The notes under the pieces: generated by a model | Databases searched by the model: none | What the model was told of the DNA's origin: nothing | What the model saw: only the letters and a program-made list of their open reading frames with translations | Part shown: piece after piece, positions 9,101-57,969 of the stretch | Layout of the letters: each line of letters starts with the position of its first letter | Numbering within the stretch: the first letter of the stretch is position 1 | Position numbers and translations under genes: made by a program | Source: Taeniopygia guttata | Taxonomy: Eukaryota; Chordata; Aves; Passeriformes; Estrildidae | Reading direction: 5' to 3' | DNA: 64,000 nucleotides | NCBI RefSeq assembly: GCF_048771995.1 | Contig: NC_133050.1 | Coordinates: 7,674,501-7,738,500 of the forward strand

Positions 9101-12100
9101 GAAAAGCCGGAGCGCGGGCGGGAGGGATACGGGAGCGCTGGGACTGGGGAGCTTCGGGCCGGAATTCCCAGAATTCCCGGAATTCCCTGTTGCCGTTCGC
9201 AGGCCCTGGCCCAGGTGGCCACGCTGGTGGCCCGGGCTCTGTTCTCGCTGGCCGGGGGAGCCGCCGGCGCCGCCGAGAGCATCCGGGCGGATCCCAAAAC
9301 GGTGGGAATGCCTTCCTGAGTCCTGCTGGGAATGCTGCGGTGGGAACCCACACTTCCCCTGGAATTCCCCAGGGGCCTGATCCCTGGGATTGGAACCCCC
9401 AATTTTCCTGAAATCCCGGGAATTAAGTTTTCCTGAAATGCCTGGGCCTGAAATCCCTGGAATCAGGATCCCACATTTCCCTGGAATGCCCAGACTGGAA
9501 TCTTTAAGTCTGGAATCTCCCATTTGCCCGAAATCCTTGGAATCAGGATCCCCGGTTTTCCTGAAATCCTGGAGTTGGAATCCCCAGTATTCCTGAAATC
9601 CCTGGAATTAGGATCCCAAATTTTCCTAGGATCCCTGGACTTAGAGTCCACAATTTTCCTGGAATCCCTGGAATAAGAATCCCCGATTTTCCTGGAATTC
9701 CCACCTTTTCCTGGGATTCCCCATCCCGCCGTCTCTCCAGAATTCCAGCTTCTTTCCTGGGAGCCCCTCCTATCCCTGCAGTCCCTTTTTCCTGGGGAAT
9801 TCCAGGGAGATTCCCTGAGGGAATTCCGGGTTTTCCGGCAGGTAACGCGGCTGCTCTATGGATTCCTGCTCAACTCCAACAATTCCTGGTTCCAGTCTGT
9901 GATCAAACCCGACCAGAGGGGGATCCTGGGTGAGCAGAGACCCGATCCCGCTTTTCCTTGGGAATTCCCGGCCAGAGTTCCTCCTTTTTCTGCTGGAATT
10001 CCCGGCTGGGATTCTTTTTTTTCCTGCTTGAATTCCTCTTTCTCCAGCTGGGATTCCCAGCTGGAATTCCCATACCCCAGCTGAAATTCCCATTCCCAGT
10101 CCCATTTTTCCCGTTCCAAATTCCATTTTCCATGTTCCCAATCCCGTTGTTCCTGCTGTTCCCACCGTTCCCAATCCTGTTTTTCCTGTTCCCAATCCCA
10201 TTCCCAACCCCGTTTTTCCCGCTGTTCCCAATTCTGTTATTCCTGTTCCCAATCCCTCTGTTCCCATTCCCAATCCCATTGTTCCCGTTCCCAATCCCAT
10301 TTTTCCCGTTCCCAATCCCGTTTTTCCCGCCCCCAATCCCGTTTTTCCCACCGTTCCCGTTCCCAATCCCGTTTTTCCCGGCGTTCCAGGCCCTTTCCCG
10401 CAGCACTACGTGGCCGTGTCCAGCCCCACCAACACCACGCAGCTGCTGCAGGCGGTGCTGGGCAACCTGACCGGGGCCAGCGCCAACCTCAGCCGGGAGC
10501 AGTGCCAGGAGCCCGGGAAAACCCCGGGAACGCTGCCCGAGGTGAGCCGGGAGCGGGATTGGGATTGGGATCGGGATCGAGATCGGGAGCCCGGGAAAAC
10601 CCTGGGAATGCTGCCCGAGGTGAGCCGGGAGCGGGATCGGCATTGGGATCCCGGGAAAACCCCGGGAATGCTGCCCAAGGTAAACTGGGATTGGGGACTG
10701 GGATTGGGATCAGGATAGGGATTGGGGCCAGGATCCTGGGAAAACCCTGGGAACGCTGCCTGAGGTGAGCCGGGATCGGGATTGGGATTGGGGTGTCCGC
10801 CTGTCCCCCGCGCTGTCCCCGGCTGTCATTCCTGTTTTTTCCAGCTCTCATTCCCATTTTCCCTGTGTAATTCCTTGTGTAATTCCCGTTTCCCAGCTGT
10901 ACGAGTACTGGTGGGTGCAGGGCCCCCTGGATTCCAATTTCAGCTCCCGCATTCCTGGCTGTGTCTGCTCCAGTGTCTGTCTGTCCCAGGCTGTCATTCC
11001 CGTTTTTCCCAGCTGTAATTCCCGTTTTCCCTGTGTCATTCCCAGCTGTACGAGTACTGGTGGGTGCAGGGCCCCCTGGACGGGAATTCCAGCTCCCGCA
11101 TTCCCGGCTGTGTCCGCTCCGGTGTCCGGCTGTCCCCGGCGCTGTCCCCCGCCTTCGAGCTGCGCCGTTGGGACTCGCGGGAATTCTCCACCTGGACCGA
11201 GAGCCGCTGGAAGGACGTGCGGGCCCGGCTCTTCCTGGTGGCCAGCCGGGAGCTGGAGGTGATGTGCAGGGGGACACGGGGGCAGGGGTGGGACGGACAC
11301 GGGGACAGCCAGGGGACAGGGACAGCCAGGGGATACAGGGATGGGGACATGGAGATGGGACAGACAAGGGGACACAGGGACACAGGGATGGGACACAGGG
11401 ATGGGAGACGGACATCCAGGGGACAGGGACACAGGGGTCAGACAGGGACAGCCAGGGGATACAGGGATGGGACAGACAAGGGGACACAGGAATGGGACAG
11501 GGACAGGGACACCCAGGGGACACCCAGGGGACAGGGATGGGACACAGGGGTCAGACAGGGACAGCCAAGGGACACAGGGATGGGACAGACAAGGGGACAC
11601 AGGGACACAGGGATGGGGACACAGGGATGGGACAGGGACACCCAGGGGACACAGGGATGGGACAGGGACATTCAGGGGACAGGGACAGCCAGGGACACTG
11701 AGGGGACACAAGGAGGGGGATAACCAGGGGACACAGGGATGGGACACAGGGATGGGACACAGGGATGGGACAGGGACATTCAGGGGACAGGGACATTCAG
11801 GGGACATCCAGGGGACAGGGATGGGACACAGGGATGGGAGAGGGACAGGGGGACAGGACAGACACAGGGACAGGAGAGAGACGGGGACACCCAGGGGACA
11901 GGGAGGGACAGGGAGGGAGCCTGGGTTGATCCCAAAATCCCAAATCCCCAATATCCGAAATCCCCAAATCCCAACCATCCCAATCCCCAATATCCCAATT
12001 CCCAAACATCCCAAATTCCCGTTTTTCCAGCTGCCGACGCTGGCGCTGCTCCTGTCCCTGCTCTGCACCAAACCCCCAATATCCCAATATCCAATTCCCA

Positions 12101-18311: not shown

Positions 18312-18707
18312 ATGATGCTGAACTCGGAGCCGGCCGTCCCGGCGGTGCCCCCGGTGCGCCCCGAGCCCCAGCCCGCAGCGGGGCCGGGCACCGGGGCAGC
18401 GGGGCCGGGCACCGGGGCAGCGGGGCCGGGCTCGGGGGCAGCGGGGCCGGGCTCGGGGGCCGTGGGCCCGGCCGGGAAGGAGCCCCTGAGCCGGGAGGAG
18501 CGGCGGCGGCGGCGGCGCGCCACGGCCAAGTACCGCACGGCGCACGCCACGCGGGAGCGCATCCGCGTGGAGGCCTTCAACGTGGCCTTCGCGGAGCTGC
18601 GGCGCCTGCTGCCCACGCTGCCCCCCGACAAGAAACTCTCCAAGATCGAGATCCTGCGCCTGGCCATCTGCTACATCTCCTACCTGAACCACGTCCTGGA
18701 CGTGTGA
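18312..18707 (+). CDS. NHLH1: NHLH1 (HEN1/NSCL1) bHLH transcription factor
   Basis: A neuronal basic helix-loop-helix factor that binds E-boxes as a dimer. The single coding exon gives 131 residues (human 133). The N-terminus MMLNSEP matches the family. Residues about 20-60 are a low-complexity Ala/Gly/Pro linker built from repeats of an 18-bp GGGGCCGGGCACCGGGGC-type unit. The bHLH, from [20 protein letters not shown] through ERIRVEAFN and [20 protein letters not shown] to SYLNHVLDV, is essentially identical to mammals and ends the protein. The start is the first of two tandem ATGs. A likely acceptor (TGTCCCCAG, about 18269) suggests an upstream non-coding exon. Confidence 0.96.
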
Positions 18708-25819: not shown

Positions 25820-26270
25820 GCCGGGATTCGGGAATTGGCGCGTTTGGGAACTGGATTTGGGAACTGGATTTGGGAATTGGCAAGATTTGGGAATTGGATT
25901 GGGAATTGGTGGGATTTGGGAATTAGCGGGGTCCAGGAATTGGATTTGGGAATTGGATTTGGGAATTAGCAGGATTTGGGAATTTGGTGGGGTTTGGGAA
26001 CTGGCGGGATTTGGGAATTGGATTTAGGAACTGGTGGGATTGGGGAATTGGATTCAGGAATTGGATTTGGGAACTGGTTGGATTTGGGAACTGGCAGGAT
26101 TCGGGAATTGGATTTGGGAACTGGCAGGATTCAGGAATTGGATTTGGGAACTGGTTGGATTTGGGAACTGGTGGAATTCGGGAACTGGCAGGATTCGGGA
26201 ATTGGATTTGGGAACTGGCCGGATTCAGGAACTGGATTTGGGAACCTTTGGGATTGGGGAATTACGGGGG
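25820..26270 (+). repeat. GGAATTGGATTTGGGAACTGG minisatellite, VANGL2 intron
   Basis: A dense array of roughly 20-40-bp units (GGATTTGGGAACTGGCAGGATT) that stops 50 bp before the probable non-coding exon at 26321. Confidence 0.9.
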
Positions 26271-26320
26271 TCCGGGAATTTGGGAGGAGCTGCCGAATTC
26301 CCGCTGTTTGGCTCCCGCAG

Positions 26321-26457
26321 CTCCAGGGCGGCCCCCCCGTGCCGTGAGCAGCCCCCCATGCCCGGCCCGTGGCCGATGCCGGCCGCTCCAGAGGCTCCGC
26401 ACGCTCCAAAGGCCTCGGAGAGCGCCGGGACGGAGCCGCCGCCGCCGGAGCCGCCCG
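26321..26457 (+). other. VANGL2: Probable VANGL2 5' non-coding exon with a uORF
   Basis: A 137-bp GC-rich block has a strong acceptor (TTTGGCTCCCGCAG) and donor (GCCCG|GTGAGTGA) and sits among minisatellites. Joined to the next exon at 28376, it creates an upstream ORF from the ATG at 26358 (MPGPWPMPAAPEAPHAPKAS...) of about 40 codons. That ORF ends at the TGA at 28396-28398, in the same frame as the main protein. Its role as a leader exon is inferred from position and splice sites only. Confidence 0.55.
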
Positions 26458-26494
26458 GTGAGTGAGCCCGGGACGGTCCTGCCGGGGAAACTGG

Positions 26495-27548
26495 GCATAC
26501 TGGGACGTACTGGGACAGGATCCATCCATTACTGGGGATACTGGGACATGCTGGGACGAGATACATCCCATTGCTGGGGATACTGGGACAGGATACATCC
26601 CATTGCTGGGGATACTGGGACATACTGGGACAGGATCCATCCCCATCCCATTACTGGGACATACTGGGACATACTGGGACAAGATCCACCTGTTACTGGG
26701 ACATACTGGGACAGGATCCATCCATTACTGGGGATACTGGGACATACTGGGACGAGATACATCCCATCACTGGGGATACTGGGACATACTGGGACAGGAT
26801 CCACCCATTACTGGGACATACTGGGACAGGATACATCCCATTGCTGGGGGGACTGGGACATACTGGGGTGGGATCCATCCATTACTGGGGATACTGGGAC
26901 ATACTGGGAGAGGATCCACCCGTTACTGGGGTTACTGGGACATACTGGGACAGGATCCATCCATTACTGGGGATACTGGGACATACTGGGACAGGATCCA
27001 CCCATTACTGGGACATACTGGGACAGGATACATCCCATTGCTGGGGGGACTGGGACATACTGGGGTGGGATCCATCCATTACTGGGGATACTGGGACATA
27101 CTGGGAGAGGATCCACCCGTTACTGGGGTTACTGGGACATACTGGGAGAAGATCCATCCCATTACTGGGGTTACTGGGACAGGATCCAGCCCTTACTGGG
27201 GATACTGGGACAGGATCCGTCTCTTACTGGGGATAGTGGGCCGTACTGGGAAGGATCCAGCCCTTACTGGAACGGGATCCAGCCCTTACTGGGGATACTG
27301 GAACGGGATCCAGCCCTTACTGGGGATACTGGGAAGGATCCAGCCCTTACTGGGGTTACTGGAACGGGATCCAGCCCTTACTGGGGTTACTGGGACAGGA
27401 TCCACCCCTTACTGGGGTTACTGGGAAGGATCCAGCCCTTACTGGGGTTACTGGGACGGGATCCAGCCCTTACTGGGGTTACTGGAACGGGATCCAGCCC
27501 TTACTGGGGTTACTGGAACGGGATCCAGCCCTTACTGGGGTTACTGGG
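26495..27548 (+). repeat. TACTGGGGATACTGGGACA minisatellite, VANGL2 intron
   Basis: About 1.05 kb of GGATCCATCCATTACTGGGG / ATACTGGGACATACTGGGAC units in higher-order arrangement, then GGATCCAGCCCTTACTGGGG units. All three forward frames are nearly open through it. Confidence 0.95.
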
Positions 27549-27929
27549 CCATACCGGGACCCCCGGTGTCTCCGGCCCCATTCCCGTCTCCCAGACAATG
27601 GCGGGAGCGGGGAAAGGCCTCGGTTTCCATGGAGATCCGTGCGGGATCATCCGGAATTCCGGACAAAGGAATTGTTTTCGCCTCCTTGACCCCTTCTCCC
27701 CCTTTCCCGGGGCCTTGGGAAAGGGGCCCGAGGCTTTTTTGGGGTCGATTTGGTGGGAATGGGATTTCCATGGGAACCCGGGAAGCTGGGACGGCTCCCA
27801 GGGGCAGCTGGGGCCTCCCGAACTGCGGGACTGGGGCGCCGGATTCCCCCAAAACCCTCGGGAAAAGGCGGCAGGGTTTGGCAGGATCACCCCGGCGGAA
27901 TTCCCAGATTCCCAAGGGTGGGGGCGGAC

Positions 27930-28095
27930 ACAGCCCCAGATCCCAAATTCCCTCCTCCTCCCGACCCCAAATCCCCTTTCCCTGCCCCAGATCCCAAATT
28001 CCCTCTCCCTCCCGACCCCAAATCCCCTTTCCCTGCCCCAGATCCCAAATTCCCTCCTCCTCCCGACCCCAAATCCCCTTTCCCAACCCCATTTC
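27930..28095 (+). repeat. 46-bp C-rich minisatellite, VANGL2 intron
   Basis: About three and a half copies of a unit containing CAGATCCCAAATTCCCTCC and CGACCCCAAATCCCCTTTCC. Confidence 0.85.
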
Positions 28096-28144
28096 CCACC
28101 AGGCAATGGGATGCAGGGTCGGGATGGGCTCTGGGACCTTTCCC

Positions 28145-28345
28145 CCCTTACTGGACCATACTGGGCCATGCTGGGCTGTACTGGTTGTACTGGACCATAC
28201 TGGACCATACTGGGCCATACTGGGCCATGCTGGGCTGTACTGGTTGTACTGGACCATACTGGGCCGTATGGGCCATACTGGGCCGTATGGGCCATACTGG
28301 GCCATACTGGGCCATACTGGACCATACTGGGCCATACTGGGCCGG
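28145..28345 (+). repeat. GGCCATACTGGACCATACTG minisatellite, VANGL2 intron
   Basis: Short 10-bp-based units (CCATACTGGG) repeat about 18 times, ending just before the exon acceptor at 28374-28375. Confidence 0.92.
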
Positions 28346-28422
28346 CCCCAGTGACGTCCCCGCGTGTCCCCGCAGGCGGGCGCGTCCTTTTCTCCTGAGC
28401 GAGGCCACCCCAAGGTGACAAA

Positions 28423-28566
28423 ATTGAGCCCCTCAAGGTCACGGTCGACTTCCTGAAGGCGCCCCTGGGCCTGAAGAAGCCCCCGCTGAAGGAGGCCCTG
28501 GCCGCTCTCCCGGGAAAACCCAAATCCCACGTCCTGGAGCGGCACAAAGCCCGGCGCTCCGACGCC
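28423..28566 (+). other. VANGL2: Candidate VANGL2 N-terminal extension (near-cognate start)
   Basis: In the exon 28376-28637 the frame of the VANGL2 ATG is open from the TGA at 28396-28398 onward. An ATT at 28423 lies in strong context (GACAAAATTG, A at -3 and G at +4), exactly 48 codons before the ATG. The codons read as ordinary protein (IEPLKVTVDFLKAPLG..., ...SHVLERHKARRSDA), with Lys/Leu-rich amphipathic character. I recall a report of a longer vertebrate Vangl2 made from a near-cognate AUA with an extension of about this length. Here AUU would replace AUA. Translation is inferred, not shown. Confidence 0.6.
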
Positions 28567-31500
28567 ATGGACAACGAGTCGCAGTATTCCGGATATTCCT
28601 ACAAATCCGGCCATTCCCGCAGCTCCCGCAAGCACAGGTGGGGCACCCGCGCTCCCCGTCCCACATTCCGTGGGCGCCCCCATCCCGGTGTGTGTCCCAA
28701 CCCTGCTTTGCCCCTTTTCCCCCCATTTCCCCTTTTCCCAGGGATCGGCGGGAGCGGCACCGCTCCAAGAGCCGGGATGGGACACGTGGGGACAAATCGG
28801 TGACGATCCAAGCGCCGGGAGAGCCTTTGCTGGACAACGAATCCACGCGGGGGGACGAGAGGGTGAGCGGGGAAAGGGCTGGAACCCCGAGGGGGGATCC
28901 CGGCGGGCCCCGGGAGCTTCCCGGCGGAATTTCCCGGCGGAGCGGTCCGGCCGGTCGGGCCGGTCCCGGGAAAGGAGAAAATGAGAAAATGAAAGGAGAC
29001 ACGGCGGCGGCTCCGGCGGCGCCTCGGGAAAAGCCAGGGCTGGAAAACGCCCCCGGGATCCGATCCCGACGGAGCCAAACCTCGAGGATTTGCCCCAAAT
29101 TCCCACCCGGATGGAACAGGGCAGGCTGCCCCGCCCCCGGTGCCCCTCGTTCCCAAATTTTGGAATTCCTCCGGGCTCCGCGGAGCCCGATCCCGGCCTT
29201 TCATCCTCTCCCAGTCCGCCCACGCCGGCGGCTCCGGCGCTTTTCATGTTCCCTCTCCGGCGGCTTTTCCTGGGAATGGGCTCCCGAAGCCGCCCTTCCC
29301 GTCCCGCTGGAAAGCCCCGGGCTCCGCTTTGCCCTTTGGAATGAAATTCGTGGAGCCGTGGAATCGGCTGGAAGGGGCCTTGAGGATCATCCCATGGCAG
29401 GGACGCCTCCCGCTATCCCAGGGTGCCCCGAGCTGGGACTGGGCGCTTCCAGGGGTGGGGGATCCATGGAAAAACCTGTGCCAGGCACCCTCACAGGTGC
29501 CAGTTTTCCGGCAGAAACTTGTGGGGAAAGATCTGAAATGGGAAAAAAACCCAAATTCCGGGAACGTCCAAGTGCCCGAAAGCAGAGTGAGGGAAAGACA
29601 CCCACGGGGTGTGGGAAGGAATCCAGCTGGGAAGGAATCCAGGATTTTTGGCACCTCTCTGGCTGGGAGAGTGGGTTCTGGAGCAGGGAAGGGCCTGTCC
29701 GGAGCCATTCCCGACAATTCCCAACAATTCCCAACCATTCCCAGCCCTGCCGGCACGGGCAGCGGTGCGGGGGCGTGCCGGGCATGTTCCTTCTGGCCCT
29801 GCCAGCCGGGGGGGTTTGCCAGGAAATCCGGGAGCTGCCCGATCCCAAAGCTGCTCCTGCCGGGAGCTTCCCGATCCCAAAGCTGCTCCTGCTGGAGCCG
29901 GAGCTTTCCCAGAGGGAACATTCCCGGCGGAATCGCTGCTCTCCCAGTCCCGGGCTGAGGTTCTGCCGCCCCGAGGAAGGCGATGGCTCCGGGATGCGCT
30001 CCCGGCGTGGAGGTGGGATGGGGGTTTGGGAATGTTCCTCTGGGACTGGAGGAATTTGGGGCTACCCCTGGGAATGTGCCCTGGGCCCTCCCCAGGGTGA
30101 CAATTCCTGGTTTGGAACTGTGGTGGATGGGAGGTCCTGGAGGTGAGGACAGGTGGGACACGGAGCCACCCCCGGAAATGTCCCCTGCCCCCTCCCCAGG
30201 GTGACAATGGGGACACTCTTGGCTTGGAGGTGCAAAGCATGGGAGGTCCTGGAGGTGAGGTGGCCACCTGGGACAGGTGGGACACGGAGCCACCCCCGGA
30301 AATGTCCCCTGTGCCCTCCCCAGGACGACAACTGGGGCGAGACCACCACGGTGGTGACGGGGACGTCGGAGCACAGCATCTCCCACGATGACCTCACGCG
30401 CATCACCAAGGACATGGAGGACAGCGCCCACCTGGACTGCTCCCGCCACCTGGGCGTGGCCCTGGGCGTGGCCCTGGCGCTCCTGGCCTTCCTCACGCCC
30501 TTGGCCTTCCTCCTCCTCCCGCAGCTGCTGTGGCGGGAGGAGCTGGAGCCCTGTGGGACGCCCTGCGAGGGGCTCTTCATCTCGGTGGCCTTCAAACTCC
30601 TCATCCTCCTGCTGGGCAGCTGGGCCTTGTTCTTCCGCCGCCCCAAAGCCTTCTTCCCGCGCGTCTTCGTGTTCCGCGCCCTGCTGATGGTGCTGGTTTT
30701 CCTGCTGGTCGTGTCCTACTGGCTCTTCTACGGCGTGCGGATCTTGGACTCGCGGGACCGCAACTACCGCGGCGTGGTGCAGTTCGCCGTCTCCTTGGTG
30801 GACGCTCTGCTCTTCGTCCACTACCTGGCCGTGGTGCTGCTGGAGCTGCGGCAGCTCCAGCCCCAGTTCACGCTCAAGGCCGTGCGCTCGGCCGACGGCG
30901 CCAGCCGCTTCTACAACGTCGGCCACCTCAGGTGGGGACGGCCGCGGTGGCCGGGCGGGCGTTCCCGTGGTGGGAATGGGGGTTTGTTTTTGTGGAAAAG
31001 GTGGTGAGAGGCAGCGTGGAGAAGTTGGGAGGGAGCTGGAAGGGATCAGCCTTGAGGAAAGGGGATCTGACGGGGTTTTGGGTTCCTCCGAGGGGGGTTT
31101 GATCACAGGGAATGGGGTCAGGACAAGAGGGAACGGCCTCGAGCTGTGCCAGGGTGGGAAATTTGGGAAAATCCCTCCTGGAAAGGGCAGCCAGGCCTTG
31201 GAAGGGGCTGACCAGGGAGGTTTGGAGTGGCCATCCCTGGAGGTGTCCAAGGAATTCCTGGAGAGTCCTCGGGATGACCAAGTGGGACTCGGCCACCGCT
31301 CAGATCCTGGAGCTCTTTTCTCTGGGAATTGATGGAATCATGGAACGGTTTGGGTTGGAAGGACCTTAAAGATCCATGGGCAGGGACACCTCCCACCATC
31401 CCAGGTGGCTCCAACCCGACCTTGGGCACTTCCAGGAATGGGGCAGCCGCGTTTTTCCCCGGGAATTCCATTCCAGCCCCTCCTGTCCCTCACACATTCC

Positions 31501-33665
31501 CCACTCTCCCCGTGCCCCACATTTCCCCCGGCAGCATCCAGCGAGCGGCCGTGTGGATCCTGGAGAATTACTACCACGACTTCCCGGTCTACAACCCCGC
31601 CCTCCTCAACCTTCCAAAATCCGTCCTTTCCAAGAAAATGTCCGGCTTTAAGGTCTATTCCCTCGGCGAGGGTGAGATTTCCCTTTTCCCGTGGCCTCTC
31701 CTCTCCTTCTTCTCCCGTTTCTCCATCCCCATCCCTGTGTTCCTCTGGGGAATTTTTTTGGGGGAGCTCCGGGTGCGGAATCCGAGCTCATCCCTGGTCG
31801 GGACGGCCCCGCAGAGAACTCCACCAACAACTCCACGGGGCAGTCGCGGGCGGTGATCGCGGCAGCGGCGCGGCGGCGCGACAACAGCCACAACGAGTTC
31901 TACTACGAGGAGGCCGAGCACGAGCGCCGGGTGCGGAAACGCCGCGCCAGGTGCGGAGAAATCCGCGGATTCCCCGCCTCGGGAATGCCGTGGTGGGCTC
32001 CTTCCGGCTTCTCCATGGGTGGGGAGATTCCAGGGGGCGATCCCGGCTCGTCCCGAGGGCGGTCGTTTGGATGGATCTTCAACCAAGTTGGTTGAAGCTT
32101 GGCTTCCTTCATCCATTTGAGTAAATCCCACCAAATCCAAGATTTCCATCCCGGATCCAAGATTTCCATCCTGGATCCAAGGGATTTCTGTCCCAAATCC
32201 AAGGGATTTTGCATCTTAAATCCACAAGGTTTTCCGTCCCAAATCCGTGGGGTTTCCCATCCCAAACCCAAGGGATTTCCCATCCCAAATCCAAGGGATT
32301 TTCCATCCCAAATTCACGGGGTTTCCCATCCCAAATCCACGGGGTTTCCCATCCCAAACCCAAGGGGTTTCCATCCCAAATCCAAGGGATTTTCCATCCC
32401 AAACCCAAGGTGTTTCCCATCCCAAACCCAAGGGATTTTCCATCCCAAATCCAAGGGATTTTCCATCCCAAATCTGTGGGGTTTCCCATCCCAAACCCAA
32501 GGGGTTTCCCATCCCAAATCCGCGGTATTTTCCATCCCAAATCCGCGGGGTTTCCCATCTCTCCGGCAGGCTGGTGGTGGCGGTGGAAGAGGCCTTCACC
32601 CACATCAAGCGGCTGCAGGAGGAGGACCAGAAGAACCCGCGGGAGATCATGGACCCGCGCGAGGCCGCCCAGGCCATCTTCGCCTCCATGGCCCGCGCCA
32701 TGCAGAAGTACCTGAGGACCACCAAGCAGCAGCCCTACCACACCATGGAGAGCATCCTGCAGCACCTGGAGTTCTGCATCACCCACGACATGACCCCCAA
32801 GGTGCGTGGGGCCGTCCAAGCGGGATTCGGGTGGGTTTCGTCCCATTTGGGATCATCCCATGGGGAAAACGAGGGGTTGGAGCGAGGTGGGGTTGGGTCC
32901 TTCTCACAGGGAACTGGGAATGGAGCTGGAGCAGCCGGAGAAGGGAATGGAGAATCCTGAGGGAGCTGGGGGAGCTCAGCCTGGAGAAAAGGGGGGTCCA
33001 GGGGGGATTTGGGGTCTGCCAGGGGGGATTTGGGATCTGCCAGGGGGCATTTGGGATCTGATCCCAGGGAATGGGCATAGGACAAGAGGGAACGGCCTCG
33101 AGCTGTGCCAGGGTGGGAAATTTGGGAAAATTCCTCCTGGAAAGGCTTTGGAAGGGCCTCAGGGAGGGTTGGAGTGGCCATCCCTGGGGGTGTCTGAGGA
33201 ATTCCTGGAATTCTGGGTGAGCAGGCGGGGATTGGCCTCAGCTCAGACTCGGTGACCTCGGAGCTCTTTCCCAACCTGGACCGTCCCAGGATCCGCCCCC
33301 AGAAATCCCCAAAGCGGCACCACGGGGCCGTTTTTCCCTCCAAAGCCAAAGCCTGGGCCGAGCCGGGCGGGGCTGACGTTGCCGTGTCCTTCCCCTTTCC
33401 CAAGGCCTTCCTGGAGCGGTACCTGACGGCCGGTCCCACCATCCAGTACCACAAGGACCGCTGGCTGGCCAAGCAGTGGACGCTGGTCAGCGAGGAGCCG
33501 GTGACCAACGGCCTCAAGGACGGCGTGGTCTTCGTGCTGAAGCGCCAGGACTTCAGCCTGGTGGTGTCCACCAAGAAGATCCCGTTCTTCAAGCTCTCCG
33601 AGGAGTTCGTGGACCCCAAGTCGCACAAGTTCATCATGAGGCTGCAGTCGGAGACCTCGGTGTGA
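28567..33665 (+). CDS. VANGL2: VANGL2 planar cell polarity protein, 7 coding exons
   Basis: A core planar-cell-polarity membrane protein that binds Prickle and Dishevelled and is sorted asymmetrically at cell junctions. Coding exons: 28567-28637, 28742-28862, 30324-30931, 31535-31671, 31815-31950, 32570-32801, 33405-33665. They total 521 residues, the human length, with all phases matching. The N-terminus [20 protein letters not shown] includes the conserved Ser clusters. Four membrane spans fall at about residues 109-130, 148-168, 183-203 and 223-243, all in the 608-bp exon. The cytoplasmic C-terminus contains [20 protein letters not shown] and ends in the PDZ ligand ETSV. The last exon uses a CAAG acceptor. 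Non-coding leader sequence starts at 28376 or earlier. Confidence 0.97.
29355..29480 (-). mobile_element. CR1 LINE 3' fragment
   Basis: Antisense CR1 end: CTGGAAGGGGCCTTGAGGAT, CCATGGCAGGGACGCCTCCC and GGCGCTTCCAGGGGTGGGG in the order of the reversed CR1 3' UTR. Confidence 0.7.
30080..30323 (+). repeat. Duplicated acceptor region before VANGL2 coding exon 3
   Basis: A unit of about 110-135 bp containing GGGACACGGAGCCACCCCCG, GAAATGTCCCCTG-GCCCTCCCCAG|GGTGACAA and GGGAGGTCCTGGAGGTGAGG is present in successive copies. The last copy ends at the real acceptor (CCCTCCCCAG, 30323). Earlier copies keep the AG, followed by GGTGACAAT rather than GACGACAAC. Confidence 0.85.
31085..31285 (+). mobile_element. 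CR1 LINE 3' fragment
   Basis: GGACAAGAGGGAACGGCCTC, GAGCTGTGCCAGGGTGGGAA, TCCTGGAAAGGG and CCATCCCTGGAGGTGTCCAA appear in sense order. Confidence 0.85.
31325..31470 (-). mobile_element. CR1 LINE 3' fragment
   Basis: GAATCATGGAACGGTTTGGG, TTGGAAGGACCTTAAAGATC and CATGGGCAGGGACACCTCCC form a well-preserved antisense CR1 terminus. It lies tail to tail with the preceding sense fragment. Confidence 0.88.
32135..32562 (+). repeat. CATCCCAAATCCAAGGGATTT minisatellite, VANGL2 intron
   Basis: About 22-bp units (TTTCCCATCCCAAACCCAAG) run some 18 times up to the acceptor of the 232-bp exon. Confidence 0.92.
33050..33292 (+). mobile_element. CR1 LINE 3' fragment
   Basis: GATCTGATCCCAGGGAATGG, GAGCTGTGCCAGGGTGGGAA, CCATCCCTGGGGGTGTCTGA and GACTCGGTGACCTCGGAGCT, ending about 110 bp before the last VANGL2 coding exon. 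A short GGGGGATTTGGGGTCTGCCA repeat precedes it. Confidence 0.85.
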
Positions 33666-35150
33666 TTGGCCGGGATGGGACTTCTCCCGAATTCTTCCGG
33701 CTCCCAATCTCCGAATTTGGCACCTCCGGCGCCGCCAGGCTGCGGAAAACTGGGAATGCCGCTCCCGGCTCCGGCGCCTTGCTGGGATCATGACCACTCG
33801 TCCTTTCCTGAGGTGGCTGAGCCCCTTTTCCTCCTCCTCCTCCTACTCATTCCCAAAATCCGGATCCTTTGGAGCCGTAACTCAAGGGCTAATTCCAAGA
33901 ATTCCCAACTTCCTTCTTCACCAGCGTCCTGGAGCAGCTCCGGGTCCCACAGGCCTCCTGCTCCTGTCCGTTTCCTCCTGGACATCTGTCCTGGCTCTGG
34001 CCTTAAACCCCTGCCCGGCCCCGGGGCTGGGTTTGGAATCCCAAGGGAATCCTTTGGGCGAGGAGAAGGATTTTGGAAGCATCTCCAGGATCCGTGGCTG
34101 CTATGGAAAAGCTCCCGTGGTGCACCCCAGGTTTTGGGAGCGTCCTCCTCGCCTCCGGTTAGGAAAAACCAGCGGAAATTTGGGGTTTTTTTGGAGGAGC
34201 CGAAGGTTGAACTGAGGTTTTGGGATATTTTTTGGGTGGATTTTGCTGCTCCAGAGGGGATCCGCGTCCCAGATTCCAGCGGCTTCTCCGTGGGGCGATC
34301 CTGGATCCGTAACCCTGAGGAGCTCCTGGGAGAGGTCAACGAGGTCCTTCAGGAGCGTCCCTCGGTGAGGCGGCTCCGTGGTGATCCCACGGAATTCCCA
34401 CGGAATCCCACGGAATTCCCACGGAAAACGCTTTTTTTTTGCCTCCTCCTGGTTTTGCTCTTAAGGTCGCAAATACCTCATGGATGGATTTGGAATTTTA
34501 TTCCCTTTTTTTTTTCCCCCCCTGCTCCAGCTTCCACCTCCACCCTCGTGGGGTTGGAAGTGCCGGATTTCATTCCAGGGAGGCGTTTTGGGGTCGGGTT
34601 TTGGGGTCGGTTTTGTCCTAAGCACTAAAAAGGAAGAGTTTGGAGCCAGGGGAGGCTTCCCCAGTAAGCACCAGTAGCAAAATGGGGAGATCCATCCCGA
34701 ATTCCAGGAAATCCCCCTTTTTTGGGGGACTTTTTGGGGGGAATTCTTTAGGGAATTTCAACTGGGAGCCCATTTTGGGGCATTTTCCTGCAAAAAAAAA
34801 AAAAAAAAAGGCGGATGGATCTTCCTGGGAGGGGTGGGGAATTCACGATTCCATTTGGGAATTTTGGGAGATCAAAATTCCCTTTTTTTGGTTCCGTTTT
34901 CGGGGTTGGGTTTGGAATTTGTTTTCCCGCAGAGCCGAGAGTTTTGTGCATGCGTGTAGAAAGTTGTAAAATGTCAAATTAATGGTTTTTAATATATAAG
35001 AAAAGCTTGGATTTTCCCGGATTTTTGCAGTGGATCGGAGCGTTCCGGCAATGGTAGGAATTTTTTTTCCGTTGGTGTTTGGTTGTTTTTCGGGCTTTTT
35101 GTTTTTGTTTTTTTTTCATAGAGGAACTAAAATCGTACAATTTTGTTTTT
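33666..35150 (+). other. VANGL2: VANGL2 3' UTR
   Basis: About 1.5 kb of mostly unique, progressively A/T-rich sequence lies between the stop codon and the AATAAA at 35153. It contains runs of A and T (34797-34809, 35107-35117) but no repeats of note and no second gene on either strand. Confidence 0.7.
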
Positions 35151-41610: not shown

Positions 41611-44600
41611 TGGCATTTTCTGCCGTCCCATGGTCCGCCTGCGAGGACAGAGGGACACGAGCTTGGTTTGGGGTGGTGGGAGTGATCCCAGCCTCGGATG
41701 GAGATCCAGGGCTTTGGTTTAGGGCTCTGGACCGCTCTGTCCTCGCCCAGCTCCAGGGGTTCCATCCCCCACCCGGGGCTGCCCAGCTCACCTTCTCCAG
41801 ACACTGGACCAGGGAATAAATGGTTTTGGGGGATCCCCCGTCCGCTGGCTCGGCTTTAACTCCGTTAGGGATGCGCTGTGGGAAGAGGATTTGGGAAGAG
41901 TTTCAGGGCTCGGTGCTGGAGAAAAGATCCCAAACCAGAGATCCCACAAAGACCCAATTCTGGAGGTGCTGCCTGTCCCAAGGCCAGGCTGGAGCTCCTG
42001 GGACAGTGGGAAGTGTCCCACCCTTGGAATGGGACAATTTTAAACTCCCTCCCAACCCCAAAATCCCCATTTCTCCCTGATCCCTCTAAAACTCAGCTTT
42101 TGGGGCTGGGCACGGAGTTTTGGGCACGTTCAGGTGCCCTTGGGCCACCTCCGGCTGTGGCACATCCCACTTGGAATTCTCAAATGGAGCCAGGGACTGT
42201 CCAGCTGTCCCCGGGGTGTCCCCAGGCTGTCCCCAGGCTGTCCCTGGGTGTCCCCAGAGTGTCCCCAGGCTGTCCCCAGGGTGTCCCCAGGCTGTCCCCA
42301 GCCCCAGACTCACCAGCTGGGAGGTGCCCACCTCGGCGTACACGGTCGTGTACTCGGCTGTGGCCGCTGCAATTGGGGAGAAAAGCAGGAATTTGGGGGT
42401 TTGGGATGCAGGGAATTCCCCCTGGGTGCTCCTGGCCGGGGGGTGGAGGGAATCCCAACCTCAGGAGTCCAGGCTTGGGTGAAACCTCGAGCCCAAAGCC
42501 CCTCGGAGCTGCTGAAGGTGGGAATGGTTCCTCATCCCCCCTCCCTGGTGCTGTGGGGTTGGGATGAACTTCCAGCACCAAGGACAGGGAAAATCCGCTT
42601 TTTTGCTTTTTTTTTTTTCTTTTCTTTTTTTTTTTAATCCCAAATTCCTGTCCGCTTTTGGAGGACAAAATCCATTTATTTCTTCTTCATGTCATCCCCA
42701 CATTGCTCATAGAACAGAGGAGGGGGAAAGGGGGATTTAAATCCTCTAAAATCCCATTTTGGGGTCGAAATTTCCCACTGGAATTCCTGGAGCAGGTGGG
42801 GATCGGGCACAACCTGAACTCGGTGGTTCTGGAGGGATTTTCCAGCCCCGGGGATTCTGGAATTCTTGGCTGGACTAACCCTGCGTCACCGAGTGGAATT
42901 CCTGGCTTTTCCCCCCAAAATGTCTCTTGCCAGCTTTTATTTTTCCCTGAATTCCCTCTTTTTTTTTCATGGTCCCGCAGCTGTGCTCCCAGCTCCCCCT
43001 TGGTGGTCTGGGATTAAATTTTCCAGCAAAAAATAAAGGGGGGAAATGGGATTTCAGGAATCTGGGCTCATCCCCCGGGATCAGCCCCTTCCACTCCCTG
43101 CCAGGACAGAGGGGTCGGGGTCCTTCAGCTCTGATCCCAAACCACGGCACTGGGGATGATTCCCCCGATCCTAAATGCAATTCCCTGGCTATTCCCACCA
43201 GGAACTGCCCCGAAATCCCACCTGTGTCCGCAGGCTTGGATTTGGAGAGATGGAATTTCTGCCAGCCTGGGGGAGATGCGACAGAATCAGAACCCCAAAT
43301 CTGCCTCAAATCCACACCAAACCCACACCAAATCTGCCCCAAATCCACCCCAAATCTGTCCCAAATCTACCTCAAATCTGTCCCAAATCTACCTCAAATC
43401 CACACCAAATCCACCCCAAATCTGCCCCATCCTGGCTCTGCCCCCCTCCCAGGTGTCCCCTCCTGCTTCCCAGGGCTCCAGGGATGTTTTTCCACGCTCA
43501 CCTTTGGATCTCCGGAAGAACAAGAGGGAGACCGATAAAAGCACCACAGCTACAACCACAGCTATGACCCCGACCCCGACCCCAACCCCGGCCTGGATGC
43601 TGGAGAGGGCACCTGGAAAAGGGAGAAGATGTGGAAGATCCCAGGGGAGCAGGATCAGCTTATCCCAACCTCAGCATTCCCATCCCATCAATTCCATTCC
43701 ACTGATCCTGTCCCATCCCCGAATCCCAATGTTCCCATGGCTCTCGGGGAATCGGGATCAGCCCATCCCAACCTCAACTTTCCCATCCCAAATCCCAGCC
43801 CCAACCTTCCCGTGTTTCTCAGGGAACCGGGATCAGCGTTCCCATGTTTCTCAGGGAACCGGGATCAGCCCATCCCAGCCCAAACTTCCCATGTTTCTCA
43901 GGGAACAGGGATCAGCCCATCCCAGCCCCAGCGTTCCCGTGTTTCTCAGGGAACCGGGATCAGCCCATCCCATCCCCAGCGTTCCTGTGTTTCTCAGGGG
44001 ACCGGGATCAGCGTTCCCATGTTTCTCAGGGGACCGGGATCAGCCCATCCCAGCCCCAGCGTTCCCATGTTTCTCAGGGAACCGGGATCAGCCCATCCCA
44101 GCCCCAGCGTTCCTGTGTTTCTCAGGGGACCGGGATCAGCGTTCCCATGTTTCTCAGGGGACCGGGATCAGCCCATCCCAGCCCCAGCGTTCCCATGTTT
44201 CTCAGGGAACCGGGATCAGCCCATCCCAGCCCAGCATTCCCGTGTTTCTCAGGGGACCGGGATCAACGTTCCCGTGTTTCTCAGGGAACCGGGATCAGCC
44301 CGTCCCACCTTCCCCCAGCTCTCCCGGCTCTCACCGGTGCAGAGCACGCCGGGGGTGCTGACGGTGACGTTCCTGCTGCTGACGGGGTTCCGTGCCGTGC
44401 ACGTCAGCGGCTCCGGCTCATCCCAGGCTGATTCGTTCCCCCACAGCAGCACCGAGCCCTCGCCCCACAGCCGATCCCGCACCCTCCAGGTGTAGGAGAT
44501 GTTCCCGACGCCGGCGCCGCGCGCGGAGCAGCGCAGGGAGAAGCTGCAGGTCCCGCTCGAGCAGTTCTGGGCCTCGCAGGTCACCGTGGGCTCTGCCAGC

Positions 44601-47068
44601 TCCCCTGGGGGCACAGCGGTGTCACGAACCTCTCTTGGAGTGTGGAAACCCCGAAAGAGCACAAACAGCACCTACTGAACACCTGGAGGGTGAAGGTGGA
44701 CTTCTTCCCACCGATGGTCACAGAGTAGGTCCCGGCATCCTCCATCTGCAGCAGGGAGATGCTGAGAGCACGGCCGTTCTCGGAGACAGCAAAACGGGTT
44801 TTGAATTTTTCTACTGAAAATATGGGTGGAGAAGAATCCTCAAACGGCACAGTCACGATGGGATCATTCCCAAAATTCCAGAATGCTGCTTCCTTGCCTC
44901 TGTTGTGGCTGTGGAAGGTCACGGACCCACCCAGGACCCCGAAGACGTCCTTGGTGTCGCTGGTGCTCACTGGGGAGAGAAAACGGGGAGGAAACTTGGG
45001 ATGGGGTGGGATGGAGCTGGGGGGAATGTAGGATAAAGGTGGGATGAAGGTGAGACCAAGGTGGAATCAAGGTGGGATGAAGCTGCTGCACGTGGAGAAT
45101 GAAGCCCATCAGGGCTGGGGCTGTGTGAAGGCTCATGGGGAGCTCCTGGAAGGGTCCCTGGGTGATGGAAGAGCACGAGGCCACCCCCAGGCTCAGCTCC
45201 CGCAGCCTCGTGTGGAGACCAGAGTCCAGAGAGGAACTGAAAGGGAAAGGGGAACGAGGAGCTGCAGATGGGAAGGTCAGGAAGAGTCACTGAGAGGACA
45301 GAGAGCTCCTGGCCAGACGCCATTCCTTGGAGGAGAATCAGGGAATTCTGGAAAGGTTCGGGTGGGAGGGACCCCAAATCCCTCTCATTCTGCTCTCCTA
45401 AAATCCCCACACCTTCCACCAGCCCGGGCTGCTCCCAGCCCTGTCCAGCCTGGCCTTGGACGCTGCCAGGGGTGTGTGGGGCAGCTCCACCACGTCTTCT
45501 CCTGGCTGAAGATTCCCTGTGGCCGCAGGGAAGGGCCCCTGTGAAACTGTGGGCTTGTTCCAGCAGTTCCATGACCTTCCCATGCTGGGGGCACCAGGTC
45601 TGGTGGCATCTGGCGGTTCCAGATGGGATCTGGCGATTCCAGGTGGGGTCTCACAAGACTAGGTGGGGTCTCACCATTCCAGGTGGACTCTCATCATTCC
45701 AGAGATGAGAACCCTCCCACTCTCCTTTGGATGCAGCCCCGGACAAGGTCCAAGGCCGCTCTGGTCCCATCCTTCCCTCCATGACCCTGGGCAGTGGTTC
45801 AAGGAGGAAGGAGTTGTTTTAATCGTTTTCGTGACTTCCCATTTCCAATCAACCGCGCCACCTGATTTATACTGGGAATGGAGTTTTTCTTCCCGGTTTT
45901 TCTAACAGGGAACTGGTCCTGGCTCAGCCCCGAGGTCGGGCTCGGAATTTCTGTCTCCCTCAGCCTCAGGGCACACTGGGACACGGGCAGCAGAGCATGT
46001 GGCAGGAAAAAGCTGCTGGGGAAGATAAACTCGTGGGAAATTTGCTGAATAACGCAGCCACAGGATGGTTCATATGATAAACACCCCCAGAGGCTGTGGG
46101 GAAGGGCTGTGGCCAAACCTTGCCCAATTTCCCTCTTTTCACCCAAAAAACACCCCAAGACGAGACCTGCAAAAATCGTGAGGCAACGCGGAGAGGAGCA
46201 GGAGCTGAGGGTAGAGCAGATGTTTGGAGCACATCTGGACCAGATGTGGACCTGATCGCTCCTTTTCAGAGGGGTCCCATGGCCAGGAGAGCGGCCTGGG
46301 CATCTTTTCTCCTGTTTGCCCCATCGTTCGCCCTGGTTGCCCCATCTCTGAGAGGCTGCCCCCTTCTCCACCCCTGCGGAGCTGATCCCACACATCCCCA
46401 CCCTCCTGAGGGTCCCTAAACCACCCCAAACCCACCACGGGCTCCCTGCCAAGGGACAAGGAGCGCCTGGCATGTGCAGAGGGACACGAGGAGGGAGCCT
46501 GGAGGTGAAAGTGGAAGGGAGAAAGCTGGAGATGGCTTGAGAAGGTCGGAAAGGTTCGCTCCGAGCACCAAAGTCCGAGCTCAGCGACCCAAGCAGGACA
46601 GGGACCTCCTGGCCAGACGTGCAGCTGCTCCTTGGAGGAGAATCAGGGAATTCTGGAAAGGTTTGGGTTGGGAGGGAACCTAAAATTATCCCGTTCCACC
46701 TCCTGGAAGCTTCCAGCGTCCCAGGTGGGTCCATCCCAGCCTCGGTCACTGCAGGGATGGCGAATCCACGGAATAACTTCTGCCAGGAGCTCCCCAGGCA
46801 GCAGCTGGCCAGAGGCTGGACCAGAGGTGGACACCAACCCTCTCCCAGCAGGTTTCCATGGCAGCGGGAGATCCGTGGATCCCACTCTGGGCACGGATCC
46901 ACCCCGTGGTGCTGCTCGGGTGGTCCCACCCATCCCCGCTCTCCCCTGACCCTAAAAACCCTCAAAGCACCCCAAAATCCCCTTCCCAGGGACAAGGAGC
47001 ACCTGGCACTCACCGGTTTGCTGGAGGAGCATGAGGAAGGCGAGAAGAGGGATCCAAGACACGTCCAT
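41585..47068 (-). CDS. SLAMF6: SLAMF6-like receptor (NTB-A/Ly108), 8 exons
   Basis: A SLAM-family receptor of NK, T and B cells. Exons in transcript order: 47068-47014, 44969-44676, 44604-44335, 43612-43502, 43266-43222, 42366-42314, 41875-41792, 41638-41585; 321 residues (human 332), phases consistent. Signal peptide MDVSWIPLLAFLMLLQQT. An IgV domain without the canonical disulphide (19-116; GVLGGSVTFH, LQMEDAGTYSV) is followed by an IgC2 domain with cysteines (117-206; FSLRCSARGAGVGNISYTW, CTARNPVSSRNVTV). The membrane span has a repeat-encoded GVGVGVG start. Two ITSMs are intact, TTVYAEV and KTIYSLV, and the tail ends in ENATRTGLELV. The second ITSM and the ending resemble human SLAMF6 (TIYSTI ... 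ATALDNVV), and the position next to VANGL2 agrees. CD84 is the main alternative. Confidence 0.75.
42770..42870 (+). mobile_element. CR1 LINE 3' end
   Basis: CTGAACTCGGTGGTTCTGGA and GGGATTTTCCAGCCCCGGGG match the sense CR1 terminus (ACTCGATGATC...TTTTCCAACC). Confidence 0.6.
43295..43430 (-). repeat. CCCAAATCTGCCCCAAATCCA repeats
   Basis: Short 10-11-bp based units beside the exon at 43222-43266. Confidence 0.85.
43640..44325 (-). repeat. TCAGGGAACCGGGATCAGCCC minisatellite
   Basis: About 13 units alternate a long form (with CATCCCAGCCCCAGCGTTCC) and a short form. The array occupies the intron between the IgC2 and membrane-span exons of the SLAMF6-like gene. Confidence 0.93.
45315..45480 (-). 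mobile_element. CR1 LINE 3' fragment
   Basis: GGGAATTCTGGAAAGGTTCG, GGTGGGAGGGACCCCAAATC and CCAGCCTGGCCTTGGACGCT form an antisense CR1 end. The flanking segment (CTCCTGGCCAGACG...CTTGGAGGAGAATC) is repeated at 46600-46650 next to another CR1 end, so the two share a duplicated segment. Confidence 0.75.
46635..46765 (-). mobile_element. CR1 LINE 3' fragment
   Basis: GGGAATTCTGGAAAGGTTTG, GGTTGGGAGGGAACCTAAAA and CACTGCAGGGATGGCGAATC. It lies in the first intron of the SLAMF6-like gene. Confidence 0.75.
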
Positions 47069-47820
47069 GGGCGTCCGGAAATGGAGAGGATTTTGGGCCA
47101 TCAGCACGCAAAAACCGTGCCACAAACAGGAAGAAGAAGAGAACCTGGATGGTTTTTCTGTGCCTGGGTGGGGCGAGGGGCTTTGGATGTGGTTGGGACG
47201 GAAATGACGTCAAGCAAATGGCTTTTGAAAGGCACAGTCATGGATATTTGAGGTATTGTTGGGGAAAAAGCGCCAGAATTTCCATGGAAGGATGAGGCTG
47301 GACCAGGAGAGTCACCGTGGCTGCGTGTGAACAGCTCAGGTGCTCCGTGGGACCAGCCCCAGCTCCCCCAGCCTGGGCCATACAGGAGCTGCTCCAGGCC
47401 CCCCCAAACCCCCAAAAAGCCGCCCCGAAAGTGGGACAATGGCCATTCTGGGGAAGCAGCACTTCTCCAATCCGGATGACTGAGGTCACATGCCGACGGT
47501 CGTGGTGAAATTTTGGGGAGAGGGGGAAGTAAGCTGGAGCAGATTAAAAAGTGATCTTAAAATGTTCTAAAAAATATTTTTTAAAGGTCCTTTAAAGATG
47601 GATTAAAAATCCTAAAAATAAGCTCTGATTCCTCTGCCCTGGTGAGGAACTGGGAGCTGCTGGTCCAGCCTGGTTTGGGATGCAAGGGACCTTAAGGACA
47701 ACGTTTTGGGGCTGGAACGGGGAGGTTTTTTGGGGCTGGAACAGGGATTTTGGGGTTGGAAAGTGCATTTTGGGGTTGGGTATTCCTCCCCTGCTGCTGG
47801 GGTGTCCGAGCTGGGGACAG
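47069..47820. other. Divergent spacer between the SLAMF6-like and CD244-like genes
   Basis: A 750-bp region between the minus-strand SLAMF6-like signal exon and the first recognisable exon of the plus-strand CD244-like copy. I see no signal-peptide exon for the latter here: no ATG is followed by a hydrophobic stretch and a phase 1 donor. A promoter for the SLAMF6-like gene is expected near 47070-47300. Confidence 0.6.
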
Positions 47821-47844
47821 CGGAGCCATCGCCATGTCCCCGAG

Positions 47845-49405
47845 TGTCCCCGGCGCTGGCGGCAAAGGGAAAGCAAAACCCCCGATCCCTGGAATGCCAA
47901 AACCGAGCGGTGGCCGCGGGAGGATCGCTGTGCCTGGTGCCGGAGAAACCCCTGTGGAACTGGATAAGCATCCAATGGAAAGTGGAAATTAATTCATCAA
48001 CGTTGCAGCAGATCCTGACGGCCAGGAGGGATGGAACTGTCTCCTATCCCAGAGGTTCTTTCCACGGGAGAGCGAAATTCCATCAGGGAAACCTCTCCCT
48101 GTGCATCTCCCCGGCTCACGGGGCAGATAACGGGGTCTATAGGGCCGAGTTCGAGAGTTCCTCCCGGATTTTGTCCCGGTGCTTCCGTGTGTCCGTGTGG
48201 GGTGAGTGGCTGGCTCCCCGTGTCCCCTGTGCCCGTGTCGCTCTGTGCCCTGTCACCGCGGCTGTCCCCGCAGAGCCCGTGGCGCAGCCGGAGCTGAAAT
48301 CCCAAATCCTGCAGCGGGGCCGGGGCTGGTGCCGCCTGGCCCTGCTCTGCTCCAGCCCCGGGAACGTCTCCTACAGCTGGGCCTGTCCCGGGGCCCCGCC
48401 GGGGGAGGGCCCGGGGCCGCTCCCGGGGCCGGGCCCGGACCCGATCCCGGGGATCCCCTCCCGCCTGGTCCGGAGGCTCCCCGAGGGCGCGGAACCCCAA
48501 ATCTGCCTCTGCAACGTCAGCGGCCCCGCGGGCTGGAGCGCGGCCCGCGCCCCGCTCACCTGCCCAGGTGAGCTCCCCGCGCATCCCGGGCTCGGGGAGC
48601 CGGGAGGGACCCGCGGGCTGGGGCTGAGCGTTCCGGGTTTACCGGCCGGGAGGGGGAATAACTGTGCTTACAGCGCTGGAAATATTCGGGGAAAAGCCTT
48701 TATGGAGATGTAAATTATGGCATTTAAAATTAACTTTTGTATGTAATATACATCATTATTGCATGTATTCTGTGTAAAATCTATAGTTGCATAAATAAAA
48801 TCCATTTATATCTCTAAAAGATATACTTATATATATAATATGTATTTATATACTATACTTATTTCTATATATAATGTATACTTATTTTTATATATAAATA
48901 TATACTTATATATAATATATATTTATACACTATTCTTATTTCTATATATAATGTATACTTATTTTTATATAGAAATATACCTATTTTCATATAAATAGAT
49001 ATTTTATATACATACAATATATACATTTTGATTTTATGTAATGCAAAAATATCAAGTTAGAGATTCAGGGAATCCTGAGACAGTTCAGATGGGAAGGGAC
49101 CCCAAATCAAAGCCTAATTCTAGGATTCTGGGATTCTTTTCCAGGAATTCCAGACAATTTCAGCCGCTGGAGACCCCTGGTCATGGCTGTGGCCGAGGGG
49201 CTGACCCTGCTCCTCGTGGGCAGCTGCTGCTGGTGGAGGGAGAGGAGGAAGAATTCCCGGGAAGGTTTGTTTGGAATGTCAGGGCAGGGTCCCAAATTTG
49301 GGGGTTCCGACCTCAAACTGACCCTTGGAACACCAAAATCCAGGAGTTGTGGAATCAAAACTTCTCAAAAACGCCCCAATTCCCACCCGTTTCCTTGCAG
49401 GATAA
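47845..49405 (+). CDS. CD244-like receptor copy lacking ITSM exons
   Basis: Exons: about 47845-48201 (IgV; start uncertain, 47821 also possible), 48274-48567 (IgC2), 49145-49264 (membrane span), then 49401-49405, where the spliced codon G|GA is followed by TAA. The IgV reads RAVAAGGSLCLVPEKP ... SLCISPAHGADNGVYRAEF. The IgC2 (RGRGWCRLALLCSSPGNVSY, ICLCNVSGPAGW) resembles human CD244 (RGRCQVALSC, GNVSYAW, CNVSNPVSW). The membrane exon (MAVAEGLTLLLVGSCCWW) is paralogous to CD244 at 63292-63417. The terminal exon, which in CD244 encodes DNGGYRHLG, is entered in the wrong phase because the four phase-changing ITSM exons are absent. The predicted tail is only RERRKNSREG. No signal exon was found. 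It could be a tail-less receptor or a decaying copy. Confidence 0.6.
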
Positions 49406-50016
49406 CGGGGGTTACAGGCGCCTGGGCTTCCCAAATCCCGCCGGCCACCAGCGCCCCTAAAACCCCGGAATTCCCATCCCTGTGGAATTCTTCTCCTGGA
49501 AACTCCAGCGGCCGCTGGGATCCCACCCGATGGAACAGAAATATCCAGAAATTCGGGGTTTTCCCCCAAAATTCCACCCCCGGCTGTGCCTGGGAGCGAA
49601 GATCTGGGGATGGGAAACTGCAGAAGGGATGGATTTGGGATTGGACAGGCGGGATGGGCGGGGAGTGGGAATTTTGTGGGGTTTTTAGGGCTTGGAAAGT
49701 TTGGGAATCCTTGTATTCTCTTTTTCTTGGTGCAAATACCGCTGAGCTGCACAATGAACCTGTTTAATTAATTAATTGGCTGATTAGAGCCTGGATTACT
49801 CCTCGGGCATGGGGAGGGAGCGGGAATTTCTTTGGGAATCAGGAATTCTAGGCTGGAATTCCGGGTGGGGATGGGGTGGGAGAGGCGATCCCGGGACTGG
49901 GATTTTCTTTGGGATCAGGATCGAAAGGGGTGGCGCCTCCTCTCCCTCATCCCAAAAATCCTCGTGGCTGTTCCCAGGCATTAATTGGGATCATTTACCG
50001 GGCGTTAATTGGGATC
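48663..50016 (+). repeat. Left arm of an inverted CD244 duplication
   Basis: Inverted relative to 61653-64000. It begins at TGTGCTTACAGCGCTGG, which is the reverse complement of the last bases of the window, and ends at CGTTAATTGGGATC. It covers an A/T microsatellite, the membrane exon, the terminal exon and the 3' flank. It is about 1 kb shorter than the other arm because the ITSM exons are missing. The pairing continues beyond the right edge, so the true outer end is unknown. Confidence 0.93.
48725..49040 (+). repeat. TATATA-rich microsatellite in the left arm
   Basis: TATACTTATATATAATATAT / CTTATTTCTATATATAATG units; the inverted counterpart lies at 63525-63860. Confidence 0.93.
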
Positions 50017-50172
50017 AGGCCTCGCGTGACCATCCCACATCACGTCGGGGACACCGCTGCTCGCTCGCTCCGGAGAGTTCCCCCAATTCCTCTGGGATCT
50101 GCTCTGGGATCCGCGAAGGATTCCCCCGGGATCGGCAGCGATTCCAGCCGGGACCGCGGATCCCGGGGAGGC

Positions 50173-57640: not shown

Positions 57641-57658
57641 GTGGTGTTCAGGATGGAA

Positions 57659-57664
57659 TTTAAT
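57659..57664 (-). terminator. CD48 polyadenylation signal (ATTAAA)
   Basis: TTTAAT on the plus strand is ATTAAA on the minus strand, about 305 bp past the CD48 stop. It is the first usable signal downstream. Confidence 0.5.
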
Positions 57665-57969
57665 GTGTAAACAAACTTTTGGGAAAGCCAAAACCGGCCC
57701 CAAACCCTCCCTGGCAGGGAGCGCCAAAGGAGGACCCCCCCAAAATCCCAGGAAACCGCAGGACAGGCTCAGATTTGGTCTCCGTGCAGATTTTGGGGCG
57801 GGGGACGGGAGGATTTCCAAATGAACCGGGAACGGAGCAATTCCGGGATTCCGCTCCCTGGCGCAGCTGTGGTTCTCCGTGCCTGGAGGATTTCGGGATC
57901 CGGGTCCGGACGCCGGCCCCGTGGTGGTGGAAGGGCAGGAGGTGAGCGGAGGTGTCGCCCGCGGGGCCC

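Follow-up and report, generated by a model that had tools for sequence, protein, structure and literature searches.

A probable AUU-initiated N-terminal extension of VANGL2, homologous to that of Vangl2-Long, in Taeniopygia guttata

A long form of VANGL2, Vangl2-Long, has been demonstrated in human, mouse and Xenopus (PMC11065751). In human cells an isoform of ~70 kDa, dependent on an upstream codon, occurs beside the 62 kDa one and is lost when AUA-144 is mutated to GCA (PMC11065751). For IMCD3 cells, the estimated ratio of Vangl2 to Vangl2-Long is 3:1 to 4:1 (PMC11065751). A junction-type peptide was reported from SKBR7 cells (PMC11065751), and passages of another study describe a mass-spectrometry peptide spanning the junction of extension and canonical protein (PMC3460870). 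The legend to figure 1G of PMC11065751 gives AUA in all six species shown, chicken included. According to passages of a further report, the translated region upstream of VANGL2 is now annotated as coding in GENCODE, is conserved in fish species and has an ATT start in some birds, in strong Kozak context (PMC11317171). AUU starts are also described for other genes: according to passages of PMC4892431, PTEN-M has a proven start at an AUU that is conserved and preceded by A at -3, and HDGF appears with an AUU start in a list in PMC9789052.

We analysed a window of 64,000 nucleotides from T. guttata (contig NC_133050.1, positions 7,674,501 to 7,738,500; coordinates below are those of the window) and found, directly upstream of the VANGL2 ATG, an open frame of coding character with homology to the human and Xenopus extension. 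We put at roughly 0.93 the probability that 28423-28566 encodes the N-terminal extension of Vangl2-Long, initiated at AUU with leaky scanning to the AUG. Each element, from the extension and its start at a non-AUG codon to the ATT in birds, has been published before; the finding is correct but not new. Ivanov et al. (2011) reportedly made an earlier suggestion, as cited in other papers. The start exon reads as follows.

28376..28637, plus strand: VANGL2 exon spanning the last part of the 5' leader, the extension and the canonical ATG; splice sites inferred from sequence (CAG acceptor before 28376, AG/GTGGGG donor after 28637)
28396..28398, plus strand: in-frame TGA, the upstream limit of the extension, read from sequence
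28423..28425, plus strand: ATT from which Vangl2-Long probably starts, a near-cognate codon flanked by A (-3) and G (+4); ten-base context CAAAATTGAG, against CAAAATAGAG in Xenopus
28423..28566, plus strand: 48-codon N-terminal extension, translation IEPLKVTVDFLKAPLGLKKPPLKEALAALPGKPKSHVLERHKARRSDA, from frame, codon usage and peptide homology
28567..28569, plus strand: canonical VANGL2 ATG, from sequence and homology to solved VANGL proteins

The frame of the ATG stays open upstream as far as the TGA, and from the ATT to the ATG there are exactly 48 codons (144 nt). No ATG occurs in any frame from 28376 to 28566. The exon probably starts after the CAG acceptor at 28376, and thus the in-frame TGA sits within the same exon; downstream, the reading frame carries on into the exon at 28742. 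Direct reading therefore confirms the original prediction of a frame open back to a TGA, with an ATT 48 codons upstream of the ATG, A at -3 and G at +4. That prediction had also pointed, rightly, to a reported AUA-started long vertebrate Vangl2 with an extension of the same length (PMC11065751). Immediately 5' of the ATT, AAGGTGACA at 28412-28420 looks like a splice donor (AAG/GTGACA); if this putative donor were used, the mRNA would lose the ATT start.

Downstream of the start exon, peptide anchors placed the remainder of a gene whose seven coding pieces run from 28567 to 33662.

28742..28862, plus strand: VANGL2 coding exon, ends inferred from flanks
30324..30931, plus strand: VANGL2 coding exon with the transmembrane part, ends inferred; Pfam Strabismus, E 6.3e-100 over 30342-30929
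31535..31671, plus strand: VANGL2 coding exon, ends inferred
31815..31950, plus strand: VANGL2 coding exon, ends inferred
32570..32801, plus strand: VANGL2 coding exon, ends inferred
33405..33665, plus strand: last VANGL2 coding exon, with stop TGA and protein end ETSV; Pfam Strabismus, E 1.1e-38 over 33405-33662

These pieces contain 512 residues; three more from split codons, together with the DDNWGE that opens the third coding exon, bring the total to 521, the length of human VANGL2 (PMC11065751). The joined 314-residue N-terminal part, extension included, scored 545 bits against solved Vang-like protein 2 (9jk7_A) and 426 and 424 bits against Vang-like protein 1. Thus, the gene is VANGL2, and an identity as VANGL1 was rejected. 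With all three solved VANGL sequences the alignment begins no earlier than query residue 48 or 49, at the canonical Met or the residue preceding it. Pfam Strabismus was found in two of the three VANGL2 exons submitted (those with the E values above); the extension with the first exon had a family match in neither Pfam nor NCBIfam, the latter being made for prokaryotes.

We compared the extension with the human one over the residues printed as text, namely 30-47 and the last three of 48. Human Vangl2-Long residues 30-47 are printed as the antigen peptide PKRPQPAALERYKARRSD (PMC11065751), and residues 30-47 of the extension here are identical to it at 11 of 18 positions, ungapped and in register. 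When the human peptide was scored against all 127,894 six-frame positions of the window, these same residues were the best match (BLOSUM62 57; runner-up 30). Additionally, the last three extension residues with the canonical N terminus agree at 15 of 16 positions with the junction peptide given in passages of PMC3460870. The gene, the 48-codon length of the extension and the -144 position of the start codon are all shared with human Vangl2-Long, the gene and the length with mouse as well (PMC11065751).

For Xenopus, the start region was taken from two published morpholinos (PMC11065751). From -4 to +6 the two species agree at nine of ten bases, and the sole change is ATA to ATT. The first seven residues, IEPLKVT here and IESLKES in Xenopus, agree at 4/7 counting the Ile itself. 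Over the full 36-nt Xenopus stretch, 19 of 36 bases match, which ties for sixth place in the window (both strands, five places better), so that homology of the whole stretch at the DNA level is not significant by itself; we regard only the core ten bases (9/10) and the residues as informative in this comparison. The Xenopus extension has 53 codons, against 48 here.

The locus has an in-frame extension of ~50 codons, a homologous peptide and, at -144, a near-cognate AUN Ile codon whose context has a purine (-3) and G (+4). Most vertebrates have AUA at this codon; the literal AUA common to the six species of PMC11065751 is replaced by ATT here. Vangl2-Long is made in human, mouse and Xenopus; here it is predicted from the sequence. 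As chicken has AUA according to the legend to figure 1G (PMC11065751), the codon change lies within birds. The bird region described in passages of PMC11317171 belongs to the same gene and has the same codon change and a strong Kozak context, and the text there leaves the species unnamed.

An open frame alone is not beyond chance at this composition, since about half of the matched first-order Markov sequences (10,203/20,000) were stop-free over 56 codons. This would suit a stretch that is untranslated in this species and either conserved only as 5' leader or open by chance in GC-rich DNA, as would the thousands of human non-AUG extensions without signs of selection mentioned in PMC9789052. 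We consider such a reading extremely improbable given the in-register human peptide homology, the codon-type composition and, in passages of PMC11317171, the place of VANGL2 among the cases given a GENCODE model with a non-AUG start. A codon-usage score trained on the canonical VANGL2 exons, with the extension left out, gave +0.469 per codon in the extension frame and -0.086 to -1.202 in the other five. None of 2,586 stop-free 48-codon segments (from 4,901 sampled elsewhere in the window, on the plus strand only, every 7 bases, overlapping and therefore not independent) attained that value. GC at codon positions 1, 2 and 3 is 0.729, 0.417 and 0.875 in the extension, and 0.609, 0.391 and 0.936 in the canonical exons. 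The extension thus resembles VANGL2 coding exons in codon usage and in third-position GC, and a chance open frame, with which the openness is compatible, is rejected by peptide homology and codon usage together.

A coding scan with similar training on canonical exons yielded a segment at 28426-28635, whose first codon directly follows the ATT; as it takes in 23 canonical codons from the training set, this segment is supporting evidence only. Shadows of VANGL2 exons on the minus strand also came out of the same scan, 33383-33676 and 30323-30715 among them. Two claims of the original prediction are borne out by these data: that the gene is VANGL2, by the match to solved Vang-like protein 2 and Pfam Strabismus, and that the 48 codons are protein-like, by the codon score and the human peptide match. 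Among phages, a protein search at E 1e-5 found no match, and none of the pattern matches in viral contigs (69) or in bacterial and archaeal genomes (229) was confirmed by tblastn, as expected for a vertebrate gene; these three collections yielded neither a further vertebrate copy nor a second bird sequence.

The extension could instead be translated mainly from an in-frame near-cognate further downstream, ACG 28441, CTG 28498 or CTG 28534, which would make it shorter. Each of the three has G at both -3 and +4, and Xenopus shows a third, intermediate band for which the authors suggest another site between both starts (PMC11065751). However, it is around the ATT/ATA codon that the ten bases are conserved, Xenopus keeps some of the first residues (4/7), and human initiation requires the AUA codon (PMC11065751). 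We therefore judge a mainly downstream start very unlikely.

Under the preferred reading, with initiation at the ATT, a scanning 43S complex with Met-tRNAi would sometimes initiate at the AUU, aided by the A at -3 and the G at +4, yielding VANGL2 with 48 extra cytoplasmic residues. Most complexes would scan past it, meet no intervening AUG in any frame and start at the canonical AUG, giving ordinary VANGL2. Leaky scanning would thus explain both isoforms: the AUU is a near-cognate codon with a strong context, and complexes that pass it would come next to the first AUG. In planar cell polarity complexes the long and short forms would join each other and VANGL1, as has been described for mammals and Xenopus. 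We infer initiation at the ATT, the isoform ratio and the function from other species. The proposal of a conserved mechanism with a changed start codon is supported to this extent, by the ATT on the same codon and the homologous extension, and was already printed for some birds according to passages of PMC11317171.

PTEN-M offers the closest parallel for the codon itself, both cases being in-frame extensions of a conserved protein from an AUU with A at -3, although the gene is unrelated and the PTEN-M extension has 146 residues (passages of PMC4892431). For PTEN-M, an RNA structure on the 3' side of the AUU has been raised as a possibility (passages of PMC4892431); none stood out here, as RNA folding of two 60-nt stretches 3' of the ATT gave no unusually stable hairpin (z 0.65, 0.21). 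A downstream hairpin aiding near-cognate initiation was rejected, since none of three stretches stood out from shuffled sequence (z 0.65, 0.21, -0.08).

The locus offers a natural codon variant of a non-AUG start that is conserved and required in development: the peptide is kept, and so is a strongly placed AUN codon, but the exact triplet is not. It may be useful as a natural test of AUA versus AUU strength, and it provides a reason for annotating the long VANGL2 isoform in birds. The ATT variant leaves the current view unchanged. It is unlikely, in our estimate, that ATA to ATT is non-neutral and resets how much long VANGL2 is made relative to the short form, ACG 28441 or CTG 28498/28534 adding intermediate isoforms; if it were so, birds with ATT and birds with ATA would differ in planar polarity dosage.

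Repeats approach the start exon closely. A tandem array of the 10-base unit TACTGGGCCA (19.9 copies, 28149-28343) stops ~30 bases 5' of its acceptor, and arrays of the related TACTGGGACA type lie within 26490-27548. An 823-codon stop-to-stop frame (25927-28398, plus strand), mostly repeats, enters the exon and terminates at the same TGA that bounds the extension; it is probably a mere repeat artefact. Across the window there was no Rfam match at gathering scores. Other coding-like sequence flanks VANGL2 on both sides.

603-11264, plus strand: coding-like pieces from the coding scan, probably nicastrin; 2822-2971 confirmed by Pfam Nicastrin small lobe
18459-18704, plus strand: bHLH gene, Pfam HLH, E 3.9e-21
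44306-59223, minus strand: several coding-like pieces from the coding scan with Ig-like sequence; V-set below the Pfam cut-off in two of four submitted, none in the other two

Nine pieces of the window were submitted to Pfam, of which four had any match and five had none. The nicastrin-region pieces 4450-4578, 10395-10634 and 11040-11264 had no Pfam match, and the piece at 53778-54098 had no relative among solved chains at E 0.1. The bHLH gene is probably NHLH1 and the Ig-like pieces are probably SLAM-family receptors, and the order resembles NCSTN-NHLH1-VANGL2-SLAMF of human 1q23. The window has short introns and many TACTGG-type arrays, a combination typical of bird microchromosomes.
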